A stretch of DNA of 64,000 nucleotides from Arthrobacter sp. YN (GTDB taxonomy: Bacteria; Actinomycetota; Actinomycetes; Actinomycetales; Micrococcaceae): NCBI RefSeq assembly GCF_002224285.1, contig NZ_CP022436.1, positions 558,001-622,000 on the forward strand, read 5' to 3'. The notes below the pieces were generated by a model. It saw only the letters and a program-made list of their open reading frames with translations, was not told where the DNA came from and made no database searches. Position 1 is the stretch's first letter; every line of letters begins with the position of its first letter. Shown here one piece after another: positions 23,715 to 45,466 of the stretch. The position numbers and the translations under genes are program-made.

Positions 23715-23798
23715 GGGCGTTCCTCTCTGAACGACAAAATCATCCGGCTGTGACCACTGCCACACCGTGGGTCAAGAATGCCACACGATGGCAGCGAA

Positions 23799-23838
23799 TG
23801 GCAATCGGTTGTCAAAATGGTGCCAAGATGGCTAAACT
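23799..23838 (+). promoter_or_regulatory. Operator (23799-23814) overlapping a sigma-70-type promoter
   Basis: TGGCAATCGGTTGTCA is a LacI-type dyad with six of eight positions symmetric. It overlaps the -35 TTGTCA (23809-23814), followed after 18 bases by -10 TAAACT (23833-23838). Binding here would block the isomerase/oxidoreductase transcript. Confidence 0.7.
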
Positions 23839-23915
23839 CGTGGGGACAAGACACTCCTGTGAACTGCGTCACCGTGCTTCGGCCGGTGGCGTCGCAGGGC
23901 TACCTAGGAGAATTC

Positions 23916-24761: not shown

Positions 24762-24838
24762 TCCGGGCAAAGCAGCGCCCAGTACCACCAGCACTGAGCA
24801 TCACCATCCGGCAGCATCATCCTTCGAAGGAGCAGGAC

Positions 24839-25846: not shown

Positions 25847-25966
25847 ACCATCCGTGCAATCGTTGGGCGAAGGGCCGGAAACCTCAGGGATTCCGGCTGT
25901 TTTCGCGTGACGGGTCCGTGTCTCCAGGCGTCTCATCCCGGCGCTTGGCAACAATTTAAGAAACTT

Positions 25967-25984
25967 TTGACAATCGGTTGCCAA
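25967..25984. promoter_or_regulatory. LacI-type operator before the oligosaccharide/peptide-class ABC operon
   Basis: TTGACAATCGGTTGCCAA, with core CAATCGGTTG identical to the site at 23802-23811. TTGACA inside it can serve as a -35 element. A half-site TTGGCAACAATT lies about 20 bases further upstream. The binding-protein gene starts 107 bases downstream. Confidence 0.7.
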
Positions 25985-26091
25985 GATCGAACAAAGTCCG
26001 TACTGTAAATCTCACACCCAGAAAAGTGTGGTGCAGGCCACACGCCCCAAGCTCTGACTCGCATCAGGCAAAGACTCAGTAGGAGCCGACA

Positions 26092-27630: not shown

Positions 27631-27636
27631 GACCCC

Positions 27637-28578: not shown

Positions 28579-30461
28579 GCGATTCCGTAGATTCAGCAGC
28601 AGTATCGGCAGACTCCATGGGCCTCGCAGCGAAGCCCGAGGCCGGCCAGAGCGGCACGGTGGTCCGTTCCACCGTCCTGCGCCGACTCCTGAAGAACCCC
28701 ATGGGCATCGCCTCGCTGGTGATCCTGCTGACCATCGCTGCGCTGGCCATCCTCGCCCCGGTGATCGCGCCTTTCGAAGAGAACTTCGCCAACATTTCCA
28801 AGACCTTGGCCGCCCCGGACTCAGTCAACATCCTGGGCACTGACAGCGCAGGACGCGATACCTGGAGCCGCCTGCTCTTCGGCGCCCAGCTGACCTTGTT
28901 GTCCGCGTTGCTGTGTGCCGGCGTGGCCATTGCCATCGGACTCCCGGCAGGCCTGATCGCCGGCTACTATGCGGGCAAATTCGAAGCCGTCTCCAACTGG
29001 GTAGTCAGCATCCTCATGAGCCTGCCCGGCCTGATCGTCCTCCTCACCATCCGCGCAGCTTTCGGCCCGTCGGTATGGATCTCCATGATCGCGTTTGGTG
29101 TCCTGATCAGCCCGGCGTACTTCCGGCTGACCCGCACCGCCGTGCAGTCGGTCCGGAACGAACTCTACGTTGACGCCGCCCGGGTCTCCGGCTTGTCTGA
29201 CCTGAGCATCATCGCCCGCCACATCTTCTCCGTGGTCCGCGCACCGATCATCATCCAGACCGCGGCCATCGCAGGTGTTGCCATCGCCATCCAGTCCGGA
29301 CTCGAATTCCTGGGCCTGGGCGATCCCACTAAGGCAACGTGGGGGGTCATGCTCTCCGAAGGCTTCAAGAACGTCTACCTCACGCCCACCCTGCTGCTCT
29401 GGCCGGCACTGGCCATGGCACTCACCATCGGCGGACTGGTCCTCCTGGGCAACGCCATCCGCGACGCCCTGGAAGACGGCGAAAAAATCAAGCACCGCAA
29501 GAAGCGTGCCATTGCTTCAGCGGAACGCACGACGACGGACCCCGCCAAGGCGCGACAGTCACGGAAGTCTGTGGCCGCCGTCGACGTCGGAACCGAGCAC
29601 CACCTGGTCAAGGTGACCAACCTCGGCGTCGGCTATCCGCAGGCTGACGGTACCGTCAAAAAGGTCGTGGACGACGTCTCTTTCCACGTGGACCGCGGCG
29701 AAATCCTGGGCATCGTTGGCGAATCGGGTTCGGGCAAGTCCCAGACCGCGTTCTCCATCCTTGGCCTGCTGCCGGATAACGCACGGATTGTTGGCGGTTC
29801 CATCCAGTTCGATGGCAACTACACGGTTGCCCCTGGCGAGGACCTCGTCAACCAGGAACGGCTGTCCAAGCTGCGCGGCAAGCGGATCTCTTACATTCCG
29901 CAGGAACCCATGAGCAACCTGGACCCGGCCTTCACCATTGGCTACCAACTGGTCACACCCATGGTCCGTGTCCTGGGAATCTCCAAAGCAGAAGCCCGCC
30001 AGCGTGCACTCAAGCTGCTCACCGACGTCGGCATTGCCAACCCGGAGCGAACCTTCAACGCTTACCCGCACGAGGTTTCCGGTGGCATGGCCCAGCGCGT
30101 ACTCATCGCCGGCGCCATCAGCTGTGAACCGGACCTGGTGATCGCTGACGAACCCACCACGGCGCTGGATGTCACCGTCCAAGCGGACGTGCTGGACCTG
30201 CTGCGCGAGCTGCAGCAGCGCCTGAACATCGGCGTGATCCTGGTGACCCACAACTTCGGAGTTGTTGCCGATCTGTGCGACCGCGTGGCCGTGATGCAGA
30301 ACGGGCGGCTGGTGGAAGAAGGCACCGTCCGCGAGATCCTCCGGAACCCGAAAGAGCCGTACACGCAGACCCTGCTCGGGTCCATGCTCGAAGGAAAGAC
30401 CCCCATGACCATGCTGGTATCGAAGCCTGGATCAGCAGCGCAGAAGGAGCCTGTCGCATGA
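28575..30461 (+). CDS. Fused ABC permease (DppC-like) and ATP-binding protein (DppD-like)
   Basis: Single polypeptide of 628 residues. Residues ~35-300 are a DppC permease with an N-terminal helix, LGTDSAGRDTWSRLLFGAQ, and the contact loop VRNELYVDAARVSGLSD. A basic linker (KIKHRKKRAIAS) leads to an ABC ATPase from ~345, with GESGSGKSQT, signature VSGGMAQRV, Walker B VIADEPTTALD and a C-terminal oligopeptide-type tail RNPKEPYTQTLL. The signature has Met-Ala in place of the usual Gln, a variant seen in this family. Permease-ATPase fusions of this kind are known in actinobacteria. Coupled on both sides by ATGA overlaps. Confidence 0.92.
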   Translation: MSDSVDSAAVSADSMGLAAKPEAGQSGTVVRSTVLRRLLKNPMGIASLVILLTIAALAILAPVIAPFEENFANISKTLAAPDSVNILGTDSAGRDTWSRLLFGAQLTLLSALLCAGVAIAIGLPAGLIAGYYAGKFEAVSNWVVSILMSLPGLIVLLTIRAAFGPSVWISMIAFGVLISPAYFRLTRTAVQSVRNELYVDAARVSGLSDLSIIARHIFSVVRAPIIIQTAAIAGVAIAIQSGLEFLGLGDPTKATWGVMLSEGFKNVYLTPTLLLWPALAMALTIGGLVLLGNAIRDALEDGEKIKHRKKRAIASAERTTTDPAKARQSRKSVAAVDVGTEHHLVKVTNLGVGYPQADGTVKKVVDDVSFHVDRGEILGIVGESGSGKSQTAFSILGLLPDNARIVGGSIQFDGNYTVAPGEDLVNQERLSKLRGKRISYIPQEPMSNLDPAFTIGYQLVTPMVRVLGISKAEARQRALKLLTDVGIANPERTFNAYPHEVSGGMAQRVLIAGAISCEPDLVIADEPTTALDVTVQADVLDLLRELQQRLNIGVILVTHNFGVVADLCDRVAVMQNGRLVEEGTVREILRNPKEPYTQTLLGSMLEGKTPMTMLVSKPGSAAQKEPVA

Positions 30462-31333
30462 GTGCCACAGATAAGTCACCGCTCCTGTCGGTAGAAAACC
30501 TGGTGGTGGAGTACCCCAGCAAGCGGTTCCGGGCCAAGCCTTTCCGGGCGTTGACGGACATCAACATCACCATCGGCCAGGGCGAAACCCTTGGCTTGGT
30601 GGGGGAGTCCGGCTCAGGCAAGACCACCCTTGGCCGTGCCGTCCTGGGCCTGGCACCGGTTACCTCTGGAAAGGTGATCTTCGAAGGCAACGACATCAGC
30701 CACGCGTCCCGCAAGGAACGCCGCACGCTGAGCCGCGACCTCCAAGTGGTGTTCCAGGACCCCTACACCTCGCTGAATCCGGCGCTGGAAATCGGCGACA
30801 TCCTGGCCGAACCACTGGGGGTGCAAGGCATGGCACCTGCTGCAGCCAAGAAACGTGTCAAGGAATTGCTGGACCAAGTAGGCCTGCCAACCGACGCCAT
30901 TCACCGCCTTCCCCGCGAGTTCAGCGGCGGCCAGCGGCAGCGCGTTGCGATCGCCCGGGCTCTTGCCCTGTCCCCGAAGTTGATTGTCTGCGACGAACCC
31001 GTCAGCGCATTGGACCTGTCCACCCAAGCCCGCGTGCTGGATCTCTTCCTGCAGATCCAAAAGGACACCGGCGTTTCGTACCTGTTCGTTTCCCACGACC
31101 TCGACGTCGTCCGGCATATCAGCCACCGCGTCGCCGTCATGTACCACGGCGAAATCGTGGAGCAAGGCCCCGCCGAGGTGGTCACCCGCGATCCCGAACA
31201 CCCCTACACGCAGCGGCTTTTGCTCGCCTCGCCCGTGCCCGATCCGGACCGGCAGGAACAACGCCGGGCAGACCGGCACCGCTTGCTCGCCAACCAACAC
31301 AGCCAAATCGAACAGCAAGGTGCGGTGGCCTGA
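30458..31333 (+). CDS. ABC transporter ATP-binding protein (DppF-like)
   Basis: Second ATPase of the importer, 291 residues. Walker A is GESGSGKTT, the signature FSGGQRQRV, Walker B LIVCDEPVSALD, then FVSHDLDVV and the DppF tail DPEHPYTQRLLLASPVPDP. ATG 30458 has AGAAGGAG upstream and overlaps the fused gene's stop by four bases; the open frame upstream of this ATG is not used. It pairs with the ATPase domain of the fused protein as a heterodimer. Confidence 0.93.
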   Translation: MSATDKSPLLSVENLVVEYPSKRFRAKPFRALTDINITIGQGETLGLVGESGSGKTTLGRAVLGLAPVTSGKVIFEGNDISHASRKERRTLSRDLQVVFQDPYTSLNPALEIGDILAEPLGVQGMAPAAAKKRVKELLDQVGLPTDAIHRLPREFSGGQRQRVAIARALALSPKLIVCDEPVSALDLSTQARVLDLFLQIQKDTGVSYLFVSHDLDVVRHISHRVAVMYHGEIVEQGPAEVVTRDPEHPYTQRLLLASPVPDPDRQEQRRADRHRLLANQHSQIEQQGAVA

Positions 31334-31397
31334 ACAGCCCTGCACCCCCATCACACATCCCAGGGTCCGGAAGGGCCCGGAAACCCCGGAGGAAAAA

Positions 31398-32282
31398 GTG
31401 GCCACAATAGGCGTCCAAGCCATGATGCTGAAGGACAGTTTTGCCGACGTCGGAGCGTTCGAAACGCTCCGCAAGGTCAGCGCGATCGGCTATAACGCCG
31501 TCGAAATTTCCCAAATCCCCATGACTCCGGAGAACGTGGGTGAACTGGACCGCTCCCGCACGGAGCTCGGCATGGACATTGCAGCGCTTTCGGTCAATAT
31601 CGAAGGCCGCAAGGGCATGCCCGTGGAATCACTGGCGGACAACTTCGACAAGATTGTGGACGACGCCAAGCGCTTGGACTCTTCCTTGCTGCGCATCGGG
31701 ATGCTTCCGTTCGGGGCCATGAGGTCCTTGGACTCGGTGGTTGAATTCGCCAAGCAGGCCAACGGCTACGCTGAACGCCTCCAGGAGCACGGCATCAGCC
31801 TGTACTACCACAACCATCACATTGAGTTCGCGAAATTTGACGGCAAGTACATGCTGGACATCATCGCTGGGAACTCACCGGCCATGGGCATGGAAATCGA
31901 CGTCCACTGGGTCCAGCGCGGTGGCTTGGACCCTGTCCGCACCGTCGAAAAATACGCGGGCAAGACTGCCATGGTGCACCTCAAGGACTACAGGATCGGT
32001 CAACTGCCGGAATCGTCCTTCGGGCTCCTGGAGAAGGGCGATTTTCCCGGCTTCATGGCCGAGTTCCGCAACGTGGTGCAGTTCGCCGAAGTGGGAGAGG
32101 GCAACCTGGACTTCCCGTCCATCGTTCCTGCCGCCGTGGCCGCGGGTGCCAGGTACCTCTTGGTGGAGCAGGACGAGCTCTATGGGCGGACCGTATGGGA
32201 TGCGCTCCAGACCTCATACGACAACCTGGTGGCCATGGGCCACGCCGACCTTTTCCAGAATTCAACAAGTTTCAGTTCTTAG
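31398..32282 (+). CDS. Sugar phosphate isomerase/epimerase-family TIM-barrel protein (second)
   Basis: TIM-barrel enzyme of 294 residues with the xylose-isomerase-like pattern: IGYNAVEISQIPM, SLYYHNHHIEFAKFDGK, MGMEIDVHWVQRGG, MVHLKDYRIG and late LVEQDELYGRT, which supplies the metal ligands. GTG 31398 follows GGAGG by five bases. It precedes the second Gfo/Idh gene by 18 bases, repeating the isomerase-then-oxidoreductase pairing at 23.9-25.8 kb. Substrate unknown; keto-glycoside or inositol-like isomerisation is plausible. Confidence 0.87.
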   Translation: MATIGVQAMMLKDSFADVGAFETLRKVSAIGYNAVEISQIPMTPENVGELDRSRTELGMDIAALSVNIEGRKGMPVESLADNFDKIVDDAKRLDSSLLRIGMLPFGAMRSLDSVVEFAKQANGYAERLQEHGISLYYHNHHIEFAKFDGKYMLDIIAGNSPAMGMEIDVHWVQRGGLDPVRTVEKYAGKTAMVHLKDYRIGQLPESSFGLLEKGDFPGFMAEFRNVVQFAEVGEGNLDFPSIVPAAVAAGARYLLVEQDELYGRTVWDALQTSYDNLVAMGHADLFQNSTSFSS

Positions 32283-32300
32283 ACACGGGAGATTGCAGTC

Positions 32301-33467
32301 ATGAGCAAGAAAGTACGCCTCGGCATCATCGGCCTGGGCCAGCAGGGCGGCGCTTACGCCAGGTTCATCGCCGACGGCCTCGTGCCGAACATGGAGATCG
32401 CCGCCATCTGCGACATCGATCCCGCCAAGAAGGAGCTTGCCGCGTCCCAGTACCCGGATGTCCCGTTCTTCGAGGATTACATCGCGATGCTGGAGAGCGG
32501 TTCCGTGGACGCGATCGTCACCTGCGTGCCGCATTTCCTGCACCCGGAGATGGGCATCGAGACACTCAAGCGCAATATCCACGCGTTGGTGGAGAAGCCC
32601 GCCGGCGTCTACACCAAGCAGGTCAAGGAGCTTAACGAGTTCGCGGCCTCCAAGCCGGAGCTCTCCTTCGGCATCATGTTCAACCAGCGCAACAACCCGC
32701 TGTATAAGAAGCTCAAGGAAATCGTCGATAACGGCGAGATTGGCAGCATCCGGCGTACCAACTGGATCATCACCAACTGGTGGCGTCCCCAGGGCTACTA
32801 CAACTCCAGCGAATGGCGCGCCACCTGGGGCGGCGAAGGCGGCGGCGTCCTGGTCAACCAGGCACCGCACCAGCTGGACCTCTGGCAGTGGATCTGCGGC
32901 GTCCCCAAGTCCGTGTACTCGAAGGTGGCGTTCGGCTTCCGCCGCGATATCGCCGTCGAGGATGAGGTCACCGCGGTAGTGGATTACGGCAACGGCGCCA
33001 CTGGCGTTTTCGTGACGGCCACCCACGACATCGTGGGAACGGACCGGTTCGAAATCCTGGGCGACCAGGGCAAGATCGTGGTGGAGGGCAGCAAGGTTGC
33101 CACCGTCACCCGCTTGGTCAAACCGGAACGGGACATCAGCGATTCGATGGGCATGGACGATGTCCGCAAGCTCTTCATGGGCCAGCTGAACCGCGACGAG
33201 CTATACACCAGCGAGGTCATCGAATTCGAGTCCGTGTGGGGCGGCCAGCACGCAGGTGTCCTGGAGAACTTCGCTGCCAACATCCTGGACGGTACGCCTC
33301 TGCTGGCCCCGGGGTCCGATGGCATCAACGGTGTCCGCCTGGCCAACGCCATCCACCTCTCAGCCTGGACCGGCAAGGAAGTATCGCTGGACTTTGATGA
33401 GGACGAATTCCTGCACGAGTTGAACAAGCGCATCGCGGAAGAGGGCAAGTTCCCCGAGCGTTCCTGA
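32301..33467 (+). CDS. Gfo/Idh/MocA-family oxidoreductase (second copy)
   Basis: NAD(P)-dependent oxidoreductase of 388 residues. The cofactor start is LGIIGLGQQGGAYARF; HALVEKPAGVYTKQ carries the conserved Lys; GGVLVNQAPHQLDLWQWICG supplies the active-site His. The later YYNSSEWRATWGGEG segment is typical of a subgroup acting on glycosides. GGGAGA lies upstream of ATG 32301. An intrinsic terminator follows 15 bases after the stop, ending this transcript. Exact substrate unknown. Confidence 0.9.
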   Translation: MSKKVRLGIIGLGQQGGAYARFIADGLVPNMEIAAICDIDPAKKELAASQYPDVPFFEDYIAMLESGSVDAIVTCVPHFLHPEMGIETLKRNIHALVEKPAGVYTKQVKELNEFAASKPELSFGIMFNQRNNPLYKKLKEIVDNGEIGSIRRTNWIITNWWRPQGYYNSSEWRATWGGEGGGVLVNQAPHQLDLWQWICGVPKSVYSKVAFGFRRDIAVEDEVTAVVDYGNGATGVFVTATHDIVGTDRFEILGDQGKIVVEGSKVATVTRLVKPERDISDSMGMDDVRKLFMGQLNRDELYTSEVIEFESVWGGQHAGVLENFAANILDGTPLLAPGSDGINGVRLANAIHLSAWTGKEVSLDFDEDEFLHELNKRIAEEGKFPERS

Positions 33468-33481
33468 CAAAGCGCGAAACG

Positions 33482-33518
33482 GGCCGGTTGCTGATTTATT
33501 TGGCAACCGGCCTTTTTT
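33482..33518 (+). terminator. Intrinsic terminator containing an operator-like arm
   Basis: Arms GGCCGGTTGC (33482-33491) and GCAACCGGCC (33503-33512) with an 11-base loop and six T (33513-33518). The arms carry GCAACCGG/CCGGTTGC, the half-site of the local LacI operator, and the next lacI gene starts about 30 bases later, so the element may also serve in regulation. Confidence 0.85.
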
Positions 33519-33544
33519 GTTGCCATGCGGTCTACGATGGAGCG

Positions 33545-34591
33545 GTGACTGACGTGACGAGCACTGGAACAGCAACCACCCCCACCAAACGAGGCCGGGG
33601 GGATAAGTCGTCTGCCACGATTTACGACATCGCGAAGCTGGCGGGCGTGAATCCCTCCACTGTGTCCCGCGCGCTGAGCAAGCCCGGCCGCGTTAGCGCC
33701 AAGACGCAGAAGATCATTGAGGATGCGGCTGCGGAGCTGAACTATCAGGTCAACCCCTTCGCGCGGGCCTTGCCCACCGGCCGCACCCAGACCATCGGCT
33801 TGATCGTTGCGGACATCACCAACCCCACGTTCTTCGACATCATCCGCGGCGCCGAAACCACCGGCTCAGCCCGCGATTACACTCTGGTTTTGGCGGAATC
33901 CGCGGAGTCGCCGGAGACGGAAGTCACCGCCGCCCGGCGCCTGCTGAGCACCGTGGACGGACTCATCCTGGCCAGCCCCCGCATGGACGATGACCACATC
34001 CGCGCCCTGGCCGCTGACAAACCCGTGGCCGTCATCAACCGCGAGATCCAAGGCGTGCCGTGCGTTGTTCCCGACGTCAACAAGGGCATCAGCGAAGCCG
34101 TGCGCAGCCTGGCCGCCAATGGCCACGAAAAGCTCGCTTACGTCGCCGGCCCCCAGCAGTCCTGGATGACGGCCCGCCGTTGGGAAGGCGTCAAAGCCGC
34201 CGCCGAATGGTCCAAGCTCAGCGCGGTGCGCCTCGAGTCGTCCAAACCAACGGTCGACGGCGGCCGGCAGGTTGCGCGCGACGTCCTGGAGAGCGGGGCG
34301 ACGGCGGTGATCACCTACAACGACCTCCTGGCCATTGGCTTGATGCAGGAACTGCAGGCCGGCGGCATGCGCGTCCCGGACCAGATCAGCATTGTTGGCT
34401 TTGACGACATCTTCGGCGCCGATTTCACTACTCCCGCATTGACCACAGTGCGCTCGCCGTTGGGGGAGTGCGGCACCCGTGCCGTGACCATCCTGCTGGA
34501 CATGCTCCAAGGCCAGGAGGCCCCGGGCGAAGCTGTCCGGGTGGAGACGGAACTCGTGGTGCGCGGCTCCAGTGGGCGGCTGTTGGTTTAG
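33545..34591 (+). CDS. LacI-family repressor, right member of the paralogous pair
   Basis: Repressor of about 348 residues. The helix-turn-helix is ATIYDIAKLAGVNPSTVSRA and the effector core has IGLIVADITNPTFFDIIRG and IVGFDDIFGADFTTPALTT. It is strikingly similar to the LacI at 22.7 kb. GTG 33545 lies two bases from a GGAG and GTG 33554 lies 11 bases from it; either may be used. It sits between the transporter/oxidoreductase half and the glucuronate half of the locus. The operator family CAAYCGGTTG occurs in front of both halves. Confidence 0.87.
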   Translation: MTDVTSTGTATTPTKRGRGDKSSATIYDIAKLAGVNPSTVSRALSKPGRVSAKTQKIIEDAAAELNYQVNPFARALPTGRTQTIGLIVADITNPTFFDIIRGAETTGSARDYTLVLAESAESPETEVTAARRLLSTVDGLILASPRMDDDHIRALAADKPVAVINREIQGVPCVVPDVNKGISEAVRSLAANGHEKLAYVAGPQQSWMTARRWEGVKAAAEWSKLSAVRLESSKPTVDGGRQVARDVLESGATAVITYNDLLAIGLMQELQAGGMRVPDQISIVGFDDIFGADFTTPALTTVRSPLGECGTRAVTILLDMLQGQEAPGEAVRVETELVVRGSSGRLLV

Positions 34592-34699: not shown

Positions 34700-36106
34700 A
34701 TGTCACAGTCCATCGCAGCACACCCTGACAGGCTCCTGCCCGCAGATCCCGGGACGCGCGGCATCGCGCGGTCCTTGCTGGAGCGCGTCCAGGACCTGCC
34801 CATCATTTCCCCGCACGGCCACGTTGACGCCGCAGTCATCGAGCAGAACACCCCGTTCCCCGATCCCGCAGCGCTCCTGGTCAGCCCGGACCACTACGTC
34901 ACCCGCCTGATCCACGCCAACGGAGTTCCGATGGATCAGTTGCTGGTCGGCGCCGCGTCCGCGCCGGAGTCCCGGGAGATCTGGCGACAGTTCGTTGAAG
35001 CCTGGCCCCTGTTCGAGGGCACGGCCTCCGGGTATTGGCTGCGCACCCAGTTCAACGATGTGTTCAAGCTCGGAGCCGACCTCAGTGAGCTGTCCGCAGA
35101 TGCAAGTTACGACGCTATTGCTGCCAAGTTGATGGAACCGGACTTCCGCCCGCGGCAGCTCTTCAAGGACTTCAACATCGAGGTCCTCGCCACCACGGAT
35201 GATCCGCTGGACACTCTGGCCAGCCACAAGGCACTCACCGAAGATCCGAGCTTCAACGGCCGCGTCGTACCCACGTTCCGCCCGGACGCCTACCTGAATG
35301 TGGCCCACCCCAGCTGGAGTGCCAACGTCGATCGGCTCATCCAGACCGCGGCTGACGGCGCCACTGGCTACGCCGGCTACATCGCGGCCCTGGAAAACCG
35401 GCGTCGTTATTTCGTGGAGCATGGCGCGGTATCGGCGGACCATGGCGTCCGCACCCCGGCAACCCTCAAGCTTGACCCCCGGGAAGCGGAGGCCCTCTTT
35501 GAGAAAGCGCGCGCCGGCAGTGCAACTGCGGAAGACCGCGACGCGTTCGAGGCCCACATGATGTACCAGATGGCCCGGATGTCCGTGGAAGACGGATTGG
35601 TCATGACCATCCACCCGGGCTCCTACCGGAACCACCACGGTCCCACGTTCGAGTCCTTTGGCGCGGATACCGGTCACGACATTCCTTTCGCCGTGAACTA
35701 CACCGAGGCCATCCGTCCGTTGCTGCAGGACTTCGGCACGGCCAAGGATTTCCATCTGGTGCTCTTCACGCTGGACGAGACAGTGTTTTCCCGCGAACTC
35801 GCGCCGCTGGCCGGTTTCTACCCGTCCGTGTACATCGGCGCCCCGTGGTGGTTCCTGGATGCGCCCGACGCCATGTTGCGCTTCCGCTCCGCGGTGACAG
35901 AAACCGCCGGCTTCTCGCGGTCCTCCGGCTTCATCGATGACACCCGCGCCTTCTGCTCCATTCCCGCACGGCATGACGCCTCCCGCAGGATCGAAGCGTC
36001 CTTCCTCGCGCGCCTTGTAGCCGAGCACCGCGTCACGGAAGACCGCGCGCACGAGCTGATTCTCGACGTCGTCGATTCCTCGCCACGCAGGGTGTTCAAG
36101 CTGTGA
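34700..36106 (+). CDS. uxaC: Glucuronate isomerase
   Basis: Converts D-glucuronate to D-fructuronate (and galacturonate to tagaturonate) in the cytoplasm. It has 468 residues, the usual length. The conserved start PIISPHGHVDAAVI carries the metal-type HGH; other hallmarks are TTDDPLDTLASHK, the middle FRPDAYLNVAHP, MTIHPGSYRNHH and late PWWFLDAPDAMLRFR. No ribosome site precedes ATG 34700, consistent with a leaderless message. It overlaps the next gene by four bases (GTGA). Confidence 0.95.
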   Translation: MSQSIAAHPDRLLPADPGTRGIARSLLERVQDLPIISPHGHVDAAVIEQNTPFPDPAALLVSPDHYVTRLIHANGVPMDQLLVGAASAPESREIWRQFVEAWPLFEGTASGYWLRTQFNDVFKLGADLSELSADASYDAIAAKLMEPDFRPRQLFKDFNIEVLATTDDPLDTLASHKALTEDPSFNGRVVPTFRPDAYLNVAHPSWSANVDRLIQTAADGATGYAGYIAALENRRRYFVEHGAVSADHGVRTPATLKLDPREAEALFEKARAGSATAEDRDAFEAHMMYQMARMSVEDGLVMTIHPGSYRNHHGPTFESFGADTGHDIPFAVNYTEAIRPLLQDFGTAKDFHLVLFTLDETVFSRELAPLAGFYPSVYIGAPWWFLDAPDAMLRFRSAVTETAGFSRSSGFIDDTRAFCSIPARHDASRRIEASFLARLVAEHRVTEDRAHELILDVVDSSPRRVFKL

Positions 36107-37470
36107 GCGCCGCACTGCCGCGTCTCAACCGCGAGTCCCGGCCTGCCGTTAATGCGCCGGTCCGCATGGTGCACCTGGGCCTGGGGGCCTTCCACCGTTC
36201 GCATCAGGCCTGGTACACGCAGCACGCCGGCGACGCGGGGGAGTGGGGCATCGCCTCCTTCACCGGACGCCGACCGGACGCCGCCGATGTCCTCGCCGCG
36301 CAGGACGGTCTGTTTACCGTGGTGGAGCGATCCGATGCCGGCGACTCCTTCGAGGTAGTGGGCAGCATCGTCGAAGCGGTGGATGGCGCCAATGTCGGCC
36401 GGCTGGTTGAACTGGTCGCCGCGCCGCAGACCGCCGTGGTCACCCTGACCATCACCGAAGCGGCGTACGGCCCCGGTGCCGACGACGCCCCGCTGCTGTC
36501 CGGTCAGGAACCCACGACGCCGTTGGGCCGATTGGTCTCGGGTCTCGCCGCGCGTAAGGATGCCGACGCCGGTCCGCTGGCGGTAGTGTCGTGCGACAAC
36601 CTCTCGGACAACGGAAGCGTCGCCCGGGATGGCGTGCTGGGTATTGCCAGAGGGTTCGACGGCGGCCTGGCCGCCTGGATCGAGGCGAACGTGAGCTTCG
36701 TGAGCACGTCCGTTGACCGGATTACGCCCCGAACAACTGCGGATGACGTTGCCCTGGTGAGTGAAAAGTGCGGCTACCGGGACGACGCTCCCGTGGTCAC
36801 CGAACCTTTCCGCAACTGGGTACTGAGCGGAGACTTCCCTGCAGGCCGTCCGCGGTGGGAGGACGCCGGGGCTGTCTTTGTGGACGACATTGCGCCCTAT
36901 GAAAACCGCAAGCTCTGGCTTCTCAATGGTGCGCACTCCATCCTGGCCTACGCCGGGCAACTGCGTGGGCACTCCACGGTGGCCGAAGCCCTGGCCGATC
37001 CGGTATGCCTGCGAGCTGTTGAAGATTTCTGGGACGAAGCGTCCAGGCACCTTACCGGTGACGATCTGGGCATTCCCGACTACAGGGAGGCGCTCCTGGA
37101 GCGCTTTGGCAACTCCCGGATTGCACACCACTTGGCCCAGATCGCCGTGGACGCCAGCACCAAGCTGCGCATGCGGGCCGTCCCCGTACTCCGCGCCGAA
37201 CGCGCATCAGGGCGAACCGGTGAAGCTGCAGCCAGGATGATCGCCGTCTGGGCTGCTTACGTGGAGTCGAACCCCGGCCTTCAGGACCCCCGCGCTTCGG
37301 AGGTGGAGCAGGCCAACCAGCTTTCCAGCCTTGACCGCATTGCTGCCCTGATGTCGCTGCTGGATGCCGGGCTTGCGGGGGAGCCCCCGGTAGTGGAGCT
37401 GGTCCATCGGCTCGGCAAAGCGTTTGTACCACAGGCGCAACCGGTTGCCATAAGCGGTAATCCAACCTAA
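36103..37470 (+). CDS. uxuB: Mannitol dehydrogenase-family protein, fructuronate reductase-like
   Basis: NAD-dependent reductase of 455 residues that would convert D-fructuronate to D-mannonate. The N-terminal motif is [16 protein letters not shown]; the family signature region is [20 protein letters not shown], with the catalytic Lys in this class. GTG 36103 overlaps the uxaC stop. Mannitol and tagaturonate enzymes share this fold, but position between glucuronate isomerase and mannonate dehydratase makes fructuronate the clear choice. Its 3' end carries a palindromic operator for the next gene. Confidence 0.9.
37437..37448. promoter_or_regulatory. Palindromic LacI-type operator inside the uxuB 3' end
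   Basis: GCAACCGGTTGC is a perfect 12-base palindrome with the same CAACCGGTTG core as at 34657-34666. It lies 58 bases before the mannonate dehydratase start, suggesting an internal, separately regulated promoter or a roadblock site. Confidence 0.55.
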
Positions 37471-37505: not shown

Positions 37506-38735
37506 GTGAAAATCATTGCCGCTGAAGTCTTTGTGACCAGCCCGTCCCGCAACTTCGTCACCTTGCGCATCACCACGGAGGACGGTGTGACGGGCATCGG
37601 AGACGCCACCCTCAACGGCCGGGAACTCGCGGTAGCTGCGTACCTCAAGGAACACGTTGCGCAGCTCCTGATCGGCAAGGATCCGCACAGGATCGAGGAC
37701 ACGTGGCAGTTCCTGTACCGCAGCTCGTACTGGCGCCGCGGGCCCGTCACCATGGCGGCCATTGCCGCCGTCGACATGGCACTGTGGGACATCAAGGGCA
37801 AGGTTGCCGGCCTGCCGGTGTATCAGCTGCTGGGCGGCGCTTCCCGTAACGGGCTGCGCGCCTACGGCCACGCATCCGGCGCTGACATTCCGTCGCTGTT
37901 CGACTCTGTTCGCGAACACCTGGAGCTGGGCTACAAGTCCATCCGCATCCAGACCGCGGTCCCTGGCATCAAAGCCGTCTACGGTGTTGCCGCGCAAGCC
38001 CAGGCCTCGGGCGAACGGTACGACTACGAGCCCGCCGGCCGTGGCAACTTCCCGTTGGAAGAAGACTGGGACACCCGCGCCTACTTGCGCCACCTGCCCA
38101 CCGTTTTTGAGGCAGTGCGCAACGAGTTCGGCCCGGAAATCCCGTTGCTGCATGATGGCCACCACCGCATGACGCCCATCCAGGCGGCCAAGCTTGGCAA
38201 GGCCCTGGAACCGTACGACCTCTTCTGGTTGGAGGACTGCACCCCGGCCGAGAACCAGGAAGGGCTGCGCCTGGTCCGCCAGCACACCACCACCCCGCTG
38301 GCCATCGGCGAAATCTTCAACACCGTGTATGACTTCCAGACCCTCATCAAGGAACAGCTGATCGATTACGTCCGCGCAGCCTCCACCCACTTCGGCGGCA
38401 TCTCCCCGTTGAAGAAGGTCATGGACTTCGCCGCGCAGTACCAGATCAAGTCCGGCTTCCACGGCCCCACGGACATCTCCCCGGTGGGCTTCGCCGCCCA
38501 GTTGCACGTCGGCCTGGCCATCCACAACTACGGGATCCAGGAATACATGCAGCACTCTGACAAGACCAACGAGGTCTTCCAGCAGTCCATGACCTTCAAG
38601 GACGGCTACCTGCACCCCGGCGACAACCCCGGCATCGGCGTCGAGTTCAACGAGGAAGCCGCCGCCGCGTTCCCGTACCAGCAGGCCTACTTGCCGTACA
38701 ACCGCCTCGTGGACGGCACTGTCCATGACTGGTAA
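37506..38735 (+). CDS. manD: D-mannonate dehydratase, enolase-superfamily (ManD/RspA type)
   Basis: Dehydrates D-mannonate to 2-keto-3-deoxy-D-gluconate. It has 409 residues and belongs to the enolase superfamily, unrelated to UxuA. Diagnostic parts are the N-terminal capping domain with [20 protein letters not shown], then [12 protein letters not shown] and [15 protein letters not shown] with metal ligands, [11 protein letters not shown], and [15 protein letters not shown] 37506 has AAAGGA upstream. Some members of this family act weakly on gluconate, but adjacency to uxaC and a uxuB-like gene supports mannonate. The end overlaps the following gene by 11 bases. Confidence 0.92.
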
Positions 38736-41004
38736 ACCTGTTTCCTTTGCAAGCGGGCGCGGCCACCACATCGTAGTGATGGGCGTGGCCGGCTGCGGCA
38801 AGAGCACCGTTGGTGCCGCCCTCGCCGAACGCCTCGGTGCTGGATTCCTCGACGGCGATTCGCTGCATTCCCAAGCGAACATCGACAAGATGGCCGCAGG
38901 TACTCCGCTGAACGACGACGACCGCGCACCCTGGCTGGCTGAAATCGGCAGGCGGTTCCCGGCGTCGAACTCTGCTCTTGTCATCGCGTGCAGCGCGCTC
39001 AAGCGCTCGTACCGCGACATCATCCGCAGCGCCGACCCATCCGTGGTGTTCGTGCACCTGCACGGCACCCGTGAGTTGCTGAATGCCCGTGTGAGTGCCC
39101 GTCCCGGGCATTTCATGCCGGCCTCGCTGCTGGAGTCGCAACTGGCTGCGTTGGAACCGCTCGAGGACGACGAAGCCGGGATCGACGTGGACATCGCATC
39201 GCCCGTGGAGGACATCGTGAATGACGTACATGCCGCGCTGACAGGCCAGTCCGCAGGGTCTGCCGGGCCGCACTTGGTGGATTTGGCAGCGGCTCCCTAC
39301 AACCTGGATGACGCCGCGGTGGAGTGGGTGGAGAGCACCATTGGCTCCATGACGCTGGAAGAGAAGATCGGCCAGCTGTTCATCAATCACAACAACGATT
39401 ACTCCCCGGCATATCTCGACGGCGTGCTGGAGAACTTCCACGTGGGCGGTATGCGGTACCGGCCGGGGCCCTCTTCTGCCGTGCAGGAACACATCCGTTA
39501 CGCCCAGTCCAAAACCCGGATTCCGCTGCTGATCGCGTCCAATCCGGAGATGGGTGGCGCCGGCAGTTGCGACGACGGCACGTTCGTTTCTACGCACCTG
39601 CAGGCGGGCTCGCATCCGGACAAGGCCATTGCGCGGCAAATGGGCCAGGTGGCCGGCGTCGAAACTGCCGCGCTGGGCTGCAACTGGGCGTTCGCGCCGA
39701 TCGTGGACATTCACTACAACTGGCGCAACACGGTCATTTCCACGCGGGCTTTCGGCAACACCCCGGAGATTGTGGTGGAGCGGGCCAAGGAGTACTTCGA
39801 CGGCATCAGTGAATCACCCACCGTCTGTGCCATGAAGCACTTCCCGGGGGACGGGATTGATGAGCGCGATCAGCACGTAGTGACCTCGTACAACACCCTT
39901 GGCTACGAGGAGTGGAACGCCAGTTACGGGCACGTGTACCGCGAGATGATCGGGCATGGCGTGCAGTCCATTATGGTTGGCCACATCGGCGCTCCCGAGG
40001 TTTCCCGGCATTTCCGGCCAGGCTTGTCGGACGCTGAAATCCTCCCTGCGACGCTGGCGCCTGAGCTGTTGCAGGATCTGCTGCGTGGCGAACTCGGTTT
40101 CAACGGGCTGGTCCTGACGGATGCGTCCCTGATGGTGGGTCTGACGCAGGCCATGAAACGGCGCGACCTTGTACCTGCGACCATCGCGGCCGGCTGCGAC
40201 ATGTTCCTGTTCTTCCGGAACCTCGAAGAAGACTTCGGGTACATGCTGGATGGTTACAAGTCCGGGGTCATCGGCGAGGAGCGTTTGCAGGATGCCCTGC
40301 GGCGGATCCTTGGGCTCAAGGCGAGCCTCGGGCTGCATATGCGCCAGGAATTGGTGCCCCCGGTTGAGGCACTCGCTGTGATCGGCAGTGAGGCCCACCG
40401 TGCCATCGCTGCGGACGTTGCTGACAAAACCGTCACGCTGGTGAAGGACACCGCCCGCAACCTGCCCATCACCCCTCAGACGCATCCGCGGATCCGTCTC
40501 TACGGCATCTCGGGCGGTGCCGACTTCACGCGCGCCGATCCTCTGGCCTACCTGGACGCCGTCCGCGAAGAACTGGAAACCGCAGGATTTGAGGTCAGCG
40601 TCTTCAGGACCGCTGAGCAGCGCGAAGCCGAGGGGGAGGCCGGCATGAACTTCATGCGGGTCCTGTCCGAGGAAGCCACCGGCGACTATGCGGAGCGTTA
40701 CGACGCCGCCTTCGTCTTCGCGAATGTGAAGGGTTTCGCGCAGGAGGCCTCAATCCGGATCAAGTGGTCCTCGCCCATGGCCGCCGAGATCCCGTGGTAC
40801 GCCACGGAGGTTCCCACAGTGTTCGTCTCCTTGAACCAGCCGAACCACTTGATCGACGTGCCCATGGTCAAGACCGCCATTCACGCACACGCGGCAACGC
40901 GCGAGGCCATTCGCGCCACGATCCACAAGATCCAGGGCAAGTCCGGGTTCCAGGGGACGTTCAACCAGAACGTGTTCTGCGATTCGTTCGACACCCGCCT
41001 CTGA
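38725..41004 (+). CDS. Fusion of a gluconokinase-like kinase with a GH3 glycoside hydrolase
   Basis: Single frame of 759 residues. Residues ~14-172 are a GntK-type kinase: P-loop GVAGCGKST (20-28), [28 protein letters not shown] and [13 protein letters not shown]. From ~197 a GH3 barrel follows ([12 protein letters not shown]), with KHFPGDG (371-377), a NagZ-like Asp-Gln-His dyad (D382, H384), and candidate nucleophile D466 in [12 protein letters not shown]-terminal alpha/beta domain ends it. No signal peptide, so it acts in the cytoplasm. The 11-base overlap with manD places it in the uronate operon. It may hydrolyse an imported glycoside and phosphorylate a product. I do not know this domain pairing from characterised proteins. 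Confidence 0.9.
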
Positions 41005-41061: not shown

Positions 41062-41098
41062 AGCCCGGTACCGCCCACAAAGCGGTGCCGGGCTTTTT
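41062..41098 (+). terminator. Intrinsic terminator of the uronoside operon
   Basis: 13-bp stem (AGCCCGGTACCGC at 41062-41074 with GCGGTGCCGGGCT at 41082-41094, one G-T wobble), 7-base loop and a T-run at 41094-41098. The rest of the gap 41005-41397 holds the two operators and promoter of the next operon. Confidence 0.9.
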
Positions 41099-41266: not shown

Positions 41267-41397
41267 GGCATTCGCATCACTTTTCACCGGCATGTGCCGC
41301 CCCCAGCACACAGGCCACCCAGCTTTACCGTGCCGGACGCGCAGATGCTCCGGCTGCATCAGAGTTCGCGGCAATGCTGCCGCGGAAGGAGAGCATC

Positions 41398-42522
41398 GTG
41401 AGATTGAAAAAACTCCTGGGCGCCGTAGCGGTTGTCCTGACCTTGACCGTGGGAGCCACGGGCTGCGGAAGCCGTGGAGGCACTGCGGAGTCCACCAGCA
41501 GCGCGAACCCCAGCGATTCCCTGGTGGGCATTTCGATGCCCACCCAGACCTCCGAACGCTGGATCGCAGATGGCGCCAACGTGGAGAAGTCGCTGAAGGA
41601 CCTCGGCTACAAGACGGACCTCCAGTTCGCCAACGACGACATTCCTACGCAGGTTTCCCAAATTGAGAACATGCTGACCAAGGGCGCAAAGGCCCTGATC
41701 ATCGCGGCCATCGATGGCACCACCCTGACCGACGTCCTGGCCAAAGCCAAGGAGCAGAACGTCAAGGTCATCGCCTATGACCGCCTCATCAACGGGACGC
41801 CGAACGTGGACTACTACACCACCTTCGACAACTACACCGTGGGGGTCCAGCAGGCCACTTCGTTGCTGACCGGGCTTGGCCTGGTTGACGCCAGCGGCAA
41901 GAAGGTAGAGGGCAAGGGCCCGTTCAACGTGGAGCTTTTCGCGGGAAGTCCGGACGACAACAACGCCAACTTCTTCTGGACCGGCGCCATGGACACCCTC
42001 AAGCCATACATGGATGCCGGCACCCTGAAGGTCCCCAGCGGCCAGACCAAGTTTGAGCAGGCAGCCATCCTCCGCTGGCAGGCACCCGTAGCCCAGAAGC
42101 GCATGGAAGACATCCTTACCTCGGCCTACAGCTCCGGCACCAAGCTGGACGGCGTCCTGTCCCCGTATGACGGTCTCTCCATCGGTATCATTTCCGCCCT
42201 GACCAGCACCGGCGGCTACTCCACCGGAAGCCTTCCCGTGGTCACCGGACAGGATGCAGAAAAGGGCTCCGTGAAGTCCATCGTCGCAGGCGAGCAGTAC
42301 TCCACGATCTTCAAGGACACCCGCCAGCTCGGCGCGCAGGCCGTGAAGATGGTGGACGCTGTCCTCAAGGGCACCGAGCCGGAAACCAATGACACCAAGA
42401 CCTACAACAACAAGGTCAAGGTTGTTCCGGCCTTCCTCCTGAAGTCCGTCATCATCACCAAGGACAACTTCCAGAAGGAACTCATCGACTCGGGCTACTA
42501 CAAGGAATCCGACGTCAAGTAA
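41398..42522 (+). CDS. Multiple-sugar-binding lipoprotein (ChvE/XylF class)
   Basis: Extracytoplasmic sugar-binding protein of 374 residues. GTG 41398 follows AAGGAGAG; the lipoprotein signal ends in GATGC with Cys23. Core features are [69 protein letters not shown] and [10 protein letters not shown], which mark the ChvE/xylose/galactose-binding class. Followed by ATPase and permease genes of matching type. The sugar is likely an aldose such as xylose, arabinose or galactose; sequence alone does not decide. Confidence 0.92.
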
Positions 42523-42534
42523 CTAGTTCCCGGT

Positions 42535-42583
42535 CTGTGGTCCCGCCGCCTGTGCTGCAGCGCGCAGTGCGGCGGGACCGCAG
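42535..42583 (+). promoter_or_regulatory. Intercistronic stem-loop after the binding-protein gene
   Basis: 15-bp stem: CTGTGGTCCCGCCGC (42535-42549) pairs with GCGGCGGGACCGCAG (42569-42583) with one G-U wobble and a 19-base loop. No T-run follows. It lies 13 bases after the stop of the binding-protein gene and 64 before the ATPase start, the same arrangement as at 655-687. Confidence 0.7.
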
Positions 42584-42647
42584 CCTCCCTTAGAGCCTGT
42601 CGAGTCCTCGGCCCGGCCAAGTTCCAACCAGTCAGCGGGAATTGACG

Positions 42648-44177
42648 ATGAACGTACCCATTCTTCAAATGCGAGGAATCACCAAGACCTTCCCCGGGGT
42701 AAAAGCCCTGCAGGACGTCACCCTGGACGTCAACCGCGGTGAGGTTCACGCCATCTGTGGTGAGAATGGCGCCGGGAAGTCCACCCTCATGAAGGTGCTC
42801 TCCGGCGTTTACGCCCACAACACTTTCGACGGCGACATCCTCTTCGAGAACGAACCCTGCGAATTTTCGAGCATCACGGACAGCGAAAAGCGCGGCATCG
42901 TGATCATCCACCAGGAACTGGCCCTCAGCCCGTACCTGTCCATCGCCGAGAACATCTACCTCGGCAATGAGCTGGCCAAGAACGGCTGGGTGGACTGGCG
43001 GAAGACCAATCTGGAAGCCGCCAAGCTGCTGGCCCGGGTGGGCCTCAGCGAAAATCCGGTGACCCCCATCCAGCACATCAGTGTTGGCAAGCAGCAACTG
43101 GTGGAGATCGCCAAGGCGCTGTCCAAAGAGGTGAAGCTCCTCATTTTGGATGAGCCAACAGCGGCGCTGAACGACGAAGACTCAGACCATTTGCTGGACC
43201 TCATCCTTCACCTCAAGGGCCAGGGCGTCACCAGCATCATCATCAGCCACAAACTCAACGAGATCCGCAAAGTGGCAGACGCCGTCACCATCATCCGCGA
43301 TGGCAAGTCCATCGAGACCCTGCGGCTGGATCAGGGCCAGATCACGCAGGAACGCATCATCCGTGGCATGGTGGGCCGCGACCTTGAAAGCCTCTACCCG
43401 GACCGGACGCCCAATATCGGCGAGGAAGTCCTCCGCATCGAGGATTGGACAGTCCAGCATCCCCAGGACCACTCCCGCATGGTGGTGAAAAATGCCAGCC
43501 TCAACGTCCGCAAGGGCGAAGTTGTAGGCCTGGCAGGCCTCATGGGTGCCGGCCGGACCGAGCTGGCCATGAGCGTCTTTGGCCGGACGTACGGGCGGGC
43601 AGTCTCGGGCAAGGTTTACAAGTACGGGGAAGAGATCAACACTTCCACCGTTTCCGACGCCATCGAGCACGGGATCGCCTACGCAACCGAGGACCGGAAG
43701 CACTACGGCCTGAACCTGATCGAAGACATCAAGCGCAACATCTCCATGGCCGCACTGAACAAGCTGGCCAAGCGCGGCTGGGTGGACGGCAACAAAGAGA
43801 CCACCGTTGCCAACCACTACCGCAAGAGCATGAACATCAAAGCTCCCTCCGTTGCTGCCATCACCGGCAAACTCTCGGGTGGAAACCAGCAAAAGGTGGT
43901 CCTGAGCAAATGGATGTTCTCAGACCCGGACGTCCTGATTCTGGACGAACCAACCCGTGGAATCGACGTCGGCGCCAAGTTTGAGATCTACACGATCATT
44001 GCCGAGCTCGCAGCCGCGGGGAAAGCAGTCATTGTGATCTCCTCTGAGCTTCCGGAGCTCCTGGGCATCTGCGACAGGATCTACACGCTGTCCGCAGGCC
44101 ACATCACCGGCGAAGTCCCCATCGCCGAAGCCACCCAGGAAACCCTCATGCACTACATGACCCAAGAGAAGGAATAG
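42648..44177 (+). CDS. Sugar ABC transporter ATP-binding protein (GguA/XylG class, two ATPase domains)
   Basis: Tandem ATPase of 509 residues. The first domain has GENGAGKST, a signature region [15 protein letters not shown] and [11 protein letters not shown]; the second has a degenerate Walker A ([10 protein letters not shown]), [13 protein letters not shown] and [15 protein letters not shown]. This two-domain layout is standard for the ribose/xylose/ChvE class. ATG 42648 is preferred over an in-frame TTG two codons earlier because GGGA lies eight bases upstream. Next gene starts five bases after its stop. Confidence 0.94.
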
Positions 44178-44182
44178 CGAAC

Positions 44183-45466
44183 ATGTCCGCCCTACGAGAA
44201 TCCCTTGGCTTCCTCACAAGCCGCCTCCGCCAGGTTGGCATCTTCGTCGCCCTGATCCTGATCGTCATCCTTTTCCAGGTCCTGACCGACGGCATCCTCC
44301 TGCAGCCGCAGAACGTCACCAACCTGGTGGTCCAAAACAGCTACATCCTGATCCTGGCCATTGGCATGGTAATGGTCATTATTGCCGGACACATTGACCT
44401 TTCCGTCGGGTCCATCGCAGGCTTCATCGGTGCTGTGGCCGGCGTGATGATCGTGCACTGGGGCTGGGCGTGGTGGCTCGCCATCCCGGCCTGCCTCCTG
44501 GTTGGTGCCTTGGTGGGAGCGTGGCAAGGCTACTGGATTGCCTATGTGGGCATTCCAGCCTTCATCGTCACCCTCGCCGGCATGCTCATCTTCCGTGGCC
44601 TGACCCTCATCACCCTCAAGAACCAGCAGATCACCCCCTTCCCGAACGAACTCCGTGCACTGGGCGGCGGCTTCCTGCCGGACATTTCCGGGGGTACCTC
44701 CGTGCTGGAATGGCTGACGGTCATCCTCGGCGTCGGCGGTACTGCAGCCATCCTCTTCCAGGCATTGAAGGAACGCCGGGTACGCCGCAAGTTCAACCTC
44801 GAGAATGAGCCGATGGCCTGGTTCGCCGTCAAGAACGGCTTCATCGCAGTGCTGATGCTCATCATCACCTTCCTGCTGGCCAGCTACCGCGGAACCCCGA
44901 TTGTCCTGATAGTCCTGGCTGTCCTGGTGATCGTCTACTCGGCGCTGATGAACAACAGCATTTTCGGCCGTCACACCTACGCGATCGGTGGAAACCTCCA
45001 CGCCGCCGAGCTTTCCGGCATCAAGACCAAGAAGGTCACCTTCCGCCTGTTCGTCAACATGGGTGTCCTGGCCGCGTTGGCCGGGCTGGTGTTCACGGCC
45101 CGCCTGAACTCGGCACAGCCTGCCGGTGGTACCGGCTTCGAACTCGACTCCATTGCCGCCGCGTTCATTGGTGGCGCAGCGGTCCAGGGCGGTATCGGCA
45201 CGGTAGCGGGCGCCATGATCGGTGGCCTGATCATGGGCGTCCTGAACAACGGCATGTCCATCCTCGGCCTGGGGACCGATTACCAGCAGCTCATCAAGGG
45301 CTTGGTGCTCCTGCTCGCCGTCGGCTTCGACATCTTCAACAAGAACCGCACCGGTTCGGGTGGAGGGTCCACCATGGGGCGTCGCTTCAAGTGGAAGACC
45401 ACGCCTCCGGCCACCGAAGCGGCTCCGGCTACCAAAGCGGAGCCCGTGGGCGTCGACGCTAAGTAG
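44183..45466 (+). CDS. Sugar ABC transporter permease (GguB/XylH class)
   Basis: Membrane protein of 427 residues with about 10-12 hydrophobic segments, longer than RbsC and typical of the XylH/GguB group. Conserved parts are GHIDLSVGSIAGFIGAVAG, the middle AYVGIPAFIVTLAGMLIFRG and NSIFGRHTYAIGGNLHAAEL. The tail after the last helix is Ala/Pro/Lys-rich. AAGGAA precedes ATG 44183. The LacI gene follows six bases after the stop. Confidence 0.93.
   Translation: MSALRESLGFLTSRLRQVGIFVALILIVILFQVLTDGILLQPQNVTNLVVQNSYILILAIGMVMVIIAGHIDLSVGSIAGFIGAVAGVMIVHWGWAWWLAIPACLLVGALVGAWQGYWIAYVGIPAFIVTLAGMLIFRGLTLITLKNQQITPFPNELRALGGGFLPDISGGTSVLEWLTVILGVGGTAAILFQALKERRVRRKFNLENEPMAWFAVKNGFIAVLMLIITFLLASYRGTPIVLIVLAVLVIVYSALMNNSIFGRHTYAIGGNLHAAELSGIKTKKVTFRLFVNMGVLAALAGLVFTARLNSAQPAGGTGFELDSIAAAFIGGAAVQGGIGTVAGAMIGGLIMGVLNNGMSILGLGTDYQQLIKGLVLLLAVGFDIFNKNRTGSGGGSTMGRRFKWKTTPPATEAAPATKAEPVGVDAK

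Follow-up and report, generated by a model that had tools for sequence, protein, structure and literature searches.

Enzymes of glycoside hydrolase family 3 (GH3) with a His/Asp dyad can act as retaining phosphorylases, and the accessible part of a 2022 review (PMC8950772) describes two that have been characterised, neither of them for uronides, and lists BglX/BglP as acting on glucosides. The dyad is also present in LpqI, a NagZ-type GH3 enzyme for which the accessible part of its description reports hydrolysis only and no phosphorylase activity (PMC6572805). Here, we analyse a gene of Arthrobacter sp. YN in which a gluconokinase-type (GntK/IdnK) kinase is fused to a GH3 domain. The gene lies in a 64,000-nucleotide stretch of contig NZ_CP022436.1 (positions 558,001 to 622,000), referred to as the window, within a host genome of 5.06 Mb in one contig. 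On our best reading, which we hold to have an even chance of being right, the product is a bifunctional cytoplasmic enzyme that takes part in the catabolism of glucuronic acid, composed of a BglX-type uronoside phosphorylase and a GntK-type kinase of the same operon. A literature search, which covered titles, abstract openings and few subscription papers and is no proof of absence, returned no description of a kinase–GH3 fusion, of a GH3 uronide phosphorylase or of a GntK-type kinase for 2-keto-3-deoxygluconate (KDG).

Domain architecture and GH3 family

The fused gene (Table 1) is a single open reading frame (ORF) of 759 codons with zero internal stops, and its ATG overlaps the 3′ end of manD by 11 nt. 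Matches spanning both halves, defined as one match from query residue 15 or earlier to residue 758 or later, were found in 113 of 198 same-genus genomes among the matches listed (112 stop-free and one, genome G071, with one TAG), which rules out an annotation or sequencing artefact as the source of the fusion and bears out the claim of an earlier note on this DNA that one uninterrupted frame joins the two domains. That note had also taken both domains to be complete and had proposed searching them separately. In such searches, the N-terminal half was placed in the GntK/IdnK-type gluconokinase family TIGR01313 (197.4 bits versus a cut-off of 113.75, residues 16–170) and contained the P-loop GVAGCGKS, and the C-terminal half matched the GH3 N-domain profile PF00933 (182.2 versus 27 bits, residues 210–530) and contained the candidate nucleophile Asp466, in line with both claims. 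The active-site residues Asp382, His384 and Asp466 and the P-loop are intact in the predicted protein, and no signal peptide was evident when it was judged by eye, again in agreement with the note. An AlphaFold model of the 759-residue protein (58-row alignment) was confident in both halves (mean pLDDT 93.0, pTM 0.77), with stretches of at least three residues below pLDDT 50 limited to residues 1–7 and 175–181.

The GH3 half proved to be a relative of BglX, a retaining beta-glucoside phosphorylase. The sole solved sequence matching it in full was BglX itself (5VQD; 388 bits, E = 7e-115, next best 134 bits), with homology extending to the C-terminus, and the best Foldseek matches were 5VQE and 5VQD (TMt 0.93 and 0.94; 36% identity to BglX). 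This full-length kinship in sequence and fold, together with the Asp nucleophile and the Asp/His dyad, identifies the domain as BglX-type. Across an alignment of 131 sequences that contained both the window's protein and BglX, Asp382 and Asp466 were invariant (131/131 each), His384 was present in 130/131, and the exact RDQH motif of the G-D-G...R-D-Q-H signature occurred in 122 of 131 homologues. The active site had earlier been called NagZ-like; the D382-x-H384 dyad behind that description is there, and the family assignment has to be given up. The window reads KHFPGDG where the NagZ motif is KHFPGHG (YbbD and 6K5J have G-H-G...D-S-H), and it scored 104.6 versus 207 bits against the NagZ equivalog PRK05337, so that motif, score and BglX kinship together rule out placing the GH3 half among the NagZ-like hydrolases.

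Probable phosphorolysis and the uronate-linked GH3 clade

beta-Phosphoglucomutase (bPGM) consumes beta-glucose-1-phosphate, the expected product of a retaining beta-glucoside phosphorylase. BglX and the bPGM-linked GH3s formed one group, clade I (bipartition support 0.978 with all 131 sequences and 1.0 after thinning to 77 with loci L111–L113 removed). bPGM was found at six of the eight clade I loci scored (L104, L109, L110 and BglX lay outside the scoring). In seven genomes of one genus from another family (L103–L109), a domain with bPGM motifs is fused N-terminal to a BglX-type GH3 domain, and in three tested members it scored 202, 217 and 220 bits versus the TIGR01990 equivalog cut-off of 189; in Paenibacillus ferrarius (L194), bPGM is the next gene to GH3 (238 versus 189 bits). 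Because bPGM uses the product expected of such a phosphorylase, its fusion to a sister-clade GH3 is the strongest extra evidence for phosphorolysis. Judged from sequence, the GH3 half probably works by phosphorolysis and not by hydrolysis; the hydrolase assignment of the earlier note is weakened by the full-length BglX kinship, the RDQH signature and this sister-clade fusion. The note's further idea of an entry enzyme for acidic disaccharides stays speculative. In the proposed reaction, Asp466 would attack the anomeric carbon of the glycoside, the Asp382/His384 dyad would act as acid/base, and phosphate in place of water would resolve the intermediate into a beta-sugar-1-phosphate and the freed partner. 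L105:7815-10190 provides an example of the bPGM–GH3 fusion, and Opp-type ABC genes lie near several of the seven loci.

The window's protein shows neither clade I trait, having arginine at position 244 and no bPGM partner, and falls in clade II, which comprises all homologues outside clade I except the long-branch group L111–L113. We sampled gene context in clade II at 55 loci from genera other than the window's, excluding L098 (which duplicates L201) and six Arthrobacter/Pseudarthrobacter loci and retaining L115, which belongs to the window's family; neighbours were labelled where a BLAST match reached 60 bits inside the sequence stretch examined per locus. The counts are those of a sample, as the named homologues are the top 80 among 567 candidates and several loci share a genome or contig. 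The most frequent neighbour, at 31 loci and directly adjoining GH3 at 27 of these, was a HAD-like protein of ~280–300 residues that we refer to as HAD301 (e.g., L097:10235-11140 and L172:6098-6940). GPH symporters were present at 21 loci, GUS-like GH2 proteins at 14, UxuA at 11, UxaC at 10, Eda at 7 and bPGM at 0. Spot checks of these labels gave 889 versus 544 bits for the GUS reference, 645 versus 528 for the glucuronide-transporter reference and 799 versus 544 for the GUS of L163; at L172, UxaC, UxuA, D-mannonate oxidoreductase and Eda were above cut-off and a KdgK-like protein was below.

HAD301 itself retains an intact HAD motif set, in which DSDG, Lys208 and the two Asp residues of GDA...GD do not vary across 20 aligned sequences. 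Its predicted structure (pLDDT 94.2) is similar to those of HAD phosphatases and of bPGM, with a best E of 4.5e-06 and TMt values reaching 0.66. Neither of two members tested matched NCBIfam, and one tested member had a marginal Pfam HAD_2 match (24.6 versus 23.8 bits). At L170:8806-11859, a 1017-residue ORF combines a GUS-like GH2 protein with a HAD301-family match at residues 749–998, a possible further fusion.

Since clade II is linked to genes for glucuronides and hexuronates, a beta-linked uronic acid would be the likeliest sugar in the −1 site, perhaps held by Arg244. Position 244 is Arg in all 116 clade II sequences, versus Met in 11 and Leu in 1 of 12 in clade I, and sits in strand 242–245 of the AlphaFold model. 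Glu380 and other GH3 positions also differ between the clades, Arg244 being the absolute one; Asn273 was considered as a uronate-specific residue and discarded, as Asn occurs in clade I and clade II alike. From gene context and this one residue, specificity of the GH3 half for uronosides appears about evenly balanced.

Several observations weigh against a uronoside phosphorylase. At 20 of the 55 clade II loci, none of HAD301, UxaC, UxuA, UxuB, ManD or GUS occurred in the stretch examined, and these context-free loci include the closest group from outside (Cryobacterium and the like: L152–L157, L161, L095). Of the 14 GUS-like matches, eight are only 25–28% identical, and a 765-residue GUS-like protein of this weaker kind at L189 scored below cut-off (704 versus 950 bits). 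Arg at position 244 is shared by L111–L113, outside both clades, and may merely follow phylogeny. As for phosphorolysis, a His/Asp dyad is by itself insufficient, as LpqI illustrates in the accessible part of its description (PMC6572805). A bPGM above the cut-off is absent from this genome (best model match 92 versus 189 bits), and a HAD301 search of 61 genus genomes, run without a positive control, gave no match. A general phosphatase, another enzyme, or hydrolysis in place of phosphorolysis would explain the absence of a sugar-1-phosphate consumer.

The last of these would make the GH3 half a plain beta-glucuronidase or glucosidase acting with water inside the cell, which would account for no consumer having been found. 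SN243 (7QE1), which matches the GH3 half, cleaves pNP-beta-glucuronide efficiently according to the accessible part of its report (PMC9730296), and LpqI is a hydrolase despite its dyad (PMC6572805, accessible part). However, the match to SN243 is distant (E = 3.2e-11, residues 120–475 of the GH3 half), and the kinship to BglX over the full length and the bPGM fusion in the sister clade argue for phosphorolysis, leaving hydrolysis an unlikely but serious alternative.

Distribution of the fusion and substrate of the kinase half

Beyond the 113 genomes with spanning matches, five further same-genus genomes (G098, G123, G013, G015 and G087, corresponding to L050–L054) carry the kinase within the same ORF, the scored match starting later. 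In a family-level search with the GH3 half, 11 of 149 genomes matched at E ≤ 1e-60, five of them from the same genus; among the remaining six, two are fused (G333 and G224), two are unfused (G289 and G272), G291 is in pieces, and G308 (L115) had no kinase match within 18 kb around GH3. The nearest named relatives over the GH3 half are Arthrobacter and Paenarthrobacter records (90–94% identical). In Arthrobacter sp. PAMC25564, the accessible part of a genome report places a 2313-nt GH3 beta-glycosyl hydrolase gene and a GH2 beta-glucuronidase ~2.8 kb apart (PMC8171050), and the length of the GH3 gene would fit the fused gene. A regular-expression scan for the kinase was positive in 51 of 129 sequences, and frames are broken in GH3 or neighbouring genes at L055, L056 and some others.

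The fusion is thus widespread in the genus and not universal, as relatives with separate genes, the kinase alone or GH3 alone also occur. In one genome (L117/L148, L148 being Arthrobacter wenxiniae), ManD, a 176-residue kinase and a 581-residue GH3 are separate ORFs, 37 bp apart, and L149 has kinase and GH3 as two ORFs in a similar arrangement; at L118, GH3 comes directly after ManD without the kinase. Matches confined to the kinase or ending shortly past it define a kinase-only set of 17 genomes among the matches listed, and 16 of these loci were examined (L035–L049 and L058; G166 was left out). In all 16, the kinase directly follows ManD and no GH3 match at E ≤ 1e-15 was found within 14 kb. 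Three carry deletion scars: the kinases of L058 (6492-7235) and L044 (6855-7538) end in residues resembling the GH3 N-terminus, and that of L047 (7013-7582) ends in 20 residues resembling the GH3 C-terminus, indicating that GH3 was lost from a fused gene there and the kinase was kept for its own sake. The earlier note had held that separate genes in close relatives would speak against the fusion. Such relatives do exist, and they show that the kinase and GH3 activities are separable; the fusion itself is not undone by them.

The window's kinase is 69–88% identical to the 16 stand-alone kinases and 54–62% identical to the GH3-adjoining kinases of L050–L054, L056, L057 and L059–L066, whose GH3 halves are 82–90% identical to its own. 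Fused and separate copies intermingle inside the window's lineage of the kinase tree. With two kinase lineages, either the kinase part was swapped by recombination or the fusion arose more than once. A second GntK-type kinase (52–59% identical to the window's) lies near the kinase and GH3 at L116:5985-6602, L117:8025-8501 and L149:15168-15626.

These data also bear on whether an ordinary second gluconokinase was simply joined to its downstream neighbour in a functionally meaningless fusion. Adjacent genes fuse easily, each gene also stands alone at the same operon place, and the three scars record loss of GH3; against this, the fusion is retained across more than half of the same-genus genomes (113/198 among the matches listed) and is kept with both kinase lineages beside GH3 halves that have diverged far less. 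We regard a meaningless fusion as rather unlikely.

We next consider the kinase half, which directly follows ManD even where GH3 is gone and, on that ground, probably serves the uronate pathway itself. The 30 best kinase loci of an order-wide search include 22 from outside the genus: ManD is directly upstream at eight (six genera, three families), the kinase follows a UxuB-like gene at one and lies beside a GntP-like gene at three, and ten are undecided. Counting all 131 kinase-matching loci, among them duplicates and many from the genus itself, 113 have ManD immediately upstream. At L218, two different ManD-like genes on opposite strands, which share 93% and 74% identity with the ManD of the window, flank a GntK-type kinase. 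In the tree, kinases linked to ManD separate from those linked to GntP, and the clearest separator is Ile100, present in 37 of 38 ManD-linked kinases versus Leu in 12 of 12 others. The grouping is open to two objections, as the ManD-linked clade has support of just 0.51 and a ManD link is not shown for 7 of the 45 kinases in it.

As to the substrate, the kinase half scored below the gluconokinase equivalogs PRK11545 (151.8 versus 265 bits) and PRK09825 (132.1 versus 304 bits), a miss that is uninformative because this genome's GntP-linked GntK misses too (147 and 135 bits). That separate GntK, adjoining a GntP-like gene, rules out the kinase half as the cell's only gluconokinase. The half matched AAA_33/SKI and TIGR01313 and no PfkB model, so it is not a member of the PfkB family. 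KDG, from ManD, is the most economical choice of substrate; the retention of the kinase directly after ManD in genomes without GH3 adds to the case for it made in the earlier note, without proving it, and we hold it tentatively, at somewhat less than an even chance. Gluconate is somewhat less favoured.

Against KDG, a PfkB-type KdgK candidate is present in 25 of the 40 fused-gene genomes found among 61 sampled from the genus (12 close, 13 with only a 42–45% relative), a KdgK match at E ≤ 1e-60 being absent from the other 15, and an Eda-type aldolase is absent from 4 of the 40 (G004, G030, G040 and G047). Over the whole sample, KdgK at ≥58% identity occurs in 19 genomes and an Eda-type aldolase in 55. 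A PF00701 search for an alternative KDG aldolase gave 2 to 9 matches per genome in six genomes. The idea that the kinase half is the only possible KDG kinase found no support, as a KdgK-like PfkB gene, itself below the KDG-kinase equivalog cut-off, adjoins an Eda-type gene elsewhere in this genome.

A gluconate kinase would fit a different scheme, in which phosphorolysis of a beta-glucosyl-gluconate, for instance cellobionate, by GH3 yields beta-glucose-1-phosphate plus gluconate, and the GntK half converts the gluconate to 6-phosphogluconate. The two domains would then act on consecutive metabolites, a classic ground for fusion, the kinase is assigned to the GntK family, and GH94 cellobionate phosphorylases that use gluconate are known (PMC8950772, accessible part). 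Yet the operon neighbours are uronate genes, the kinase is retained after ManD without GH3 and GH3 occurs without the kinase in uronate clusters, and the genome lacks a bPGM above the cut-off, so that we think this scheme quite unlikely. Least likely of all, mannonate might be the substrate, feeding 6-phosphogluconate via an epimerase as seen at the activity level in Lactobacillus suebicus, for which the accessible part of the report suggests GntK homologues with the genes unidentified (PMC6978723); this would fit the four genomes that carry the fused gene and lack Eda, but ManD beside the kinase would compete for mannonate.

We thus return to a uronoside phosphorylase joined to a uronate-pathway kinase that would phosphorylate a C6 sugar acid of the operon, most simply KDG from ManD. 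In its boldest form, a large unrecognised GH3 clade in Firmicutes and Actinobacteria would consist of beta-glucuronide phosphorylases making beta-D-glucuronic acid 1-phosphate, handled by a dedicated HAD enzyme in Firmicutes, and the Arthrobacter-type fused kinase would be the uronate-pathway KDG kinase; that all of this holds together is unlikely. If true, one Arthrobacter-type protein would hold the first and last committed uronate steps. Phosphorolysis of glucuronides by the clade would bring a new reaction, sugar phosphate and HAD partner to the way bacteria of gut and soil metabolise glucuronides, and the kinase half bears on whether a GntK-type enzyme can stand in for KdgK or matches the mannonate kinase of L. 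suebicus. The fused gene is one of two distinct fusions, with a kinase and with bPGM, in a little-studied GH3 group that has a large uronate-linked branch.

Operon context and comparison with known systems

The fused gene is closely preceded by uxaC, a UxuB-type gene and manD, in that order. The earlier note's uronate operon is upheld by UxaC and ManD, both above their equivalog cut-offs, and less so by the UxuB-type reductase, which is below its own. Terminator-like sites are fewer in the region than expected (5 versus a mean of 10.2 in shuffles), so only position and stem strength support the hairpin at 41062-41094 that follows the fused gene. The chvE-gguA-gguB genes start ~370 bp downstream and are probably a unit separate from the uronate operon. 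Upstream, window positions 23778-33467 hold an AP_endonuc_2 / Gfo-Idh-MocA / SBP_bac_5 / Opp-type ABC cluster, relatives of whose genes adjoin an unfused GH3 at L095, L153, L155, L157 and L161 (Gfo 78–81% identical).

Table 1 Features of the fused gene and its surroundings (window positions)
Feature	Position	Strand	Evidence
LacI-type regulator	33488..34591	+	profile match
uxaC, glucuronate isomerase	34700..36106	+	equivalog, 561.7 bits vs cut-off 387
Fructuronate reductase, mannitol-dehydrogenase family, UxuB-type	36103..37470	+	under curated cut-off, 242 vs 603
manD, D-mannonate dehydratase	37506..38735	+	equivalog, 689.4 bits vs cut-off 550
Fused gene, GntK-type kinase and probable GH3 phosphorylase-type domain	38725..41004	+	ORF, 759 aa, ATG start
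GntK/IdnK-type sugar-acid kinase domain, residues 13–173	38761..39243	+	TIGR01313; PDB gluconokinases 3t61, 4eun, 1knq
P-loop GVAGCGKS, residues 20–27	38782..38805	+	sequence
Linker, residues 174–186	39244..39282	+	pLDDT <50 at 175–181
GH3 domain, residues 187–759, relative of BglX-type glycoside phosphorylase	39283..41001	+	5VQD sequence match; Foldseek 5VQE/5VQD
Arg244, candidate binder of C6 carboxylate	39454..39456	+	clade comparison
Asp382-Gln383-His384, acid/base dyad	39868..39876	+	aligned with BglX DQH
Asp466, catalytic nucleophile	40120..40122	+	alignment with BglX
Terminator-like hairpin, 13 pairs, T tail, directly 3′ of fused gene, before chvE-gguAB	41062..41098	+	position, stem strength
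chvE-gguA-gguB, multiple-monosaccharide ABC importer	41374..45466	+	all three above cut-off

Compared with known systems, the fused protein shares the Asp-x-His dyad with NagZ-type GH3 enzymes (YbbD 3BMX, LpqI), which differ in their G-H-G...D-S-H motif and amino-sugar substrates. SN243 is reportedly placed in GH3 by its authors. It matches the GH3 half and, in the accessible part of its report, acts on beta-glucuronides (PMC9730296), but it is distant in sequence and a hydrolase. KdgK, the PfkB-type KDG kinase, catalyses the reaction proposed for the kinase half and belongs to another protein family. The pairing of GH94 cellobionic acid phosphorylase with gluconokinase offers, as a proposed idea, the same sequence of acidic-disaccharide phosphorolysis and sugar-acid kinase, but with an inverting family, separate proteins and alpha-glucose-1-phosphate (PMC8950772, accessible part). 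The kinase half resembles the GntK/IdnK gluconokinases (1KNQ, 3T61, 4EUN) in passing the subfamily cut-off and in its P-loop and conserved motifs, and differs from them in its equivalog scores and in its place after ManD rather than beside GntP. The GH3 half is collinear over its full length with BglX/BglP (5VQD, 5VQE) and shares the dyad, nucleophile and RDQH signature, whereas BglX has no kinase, belongs to the bPGM-linked clade and has Met63 where the fused protein has Arg244.

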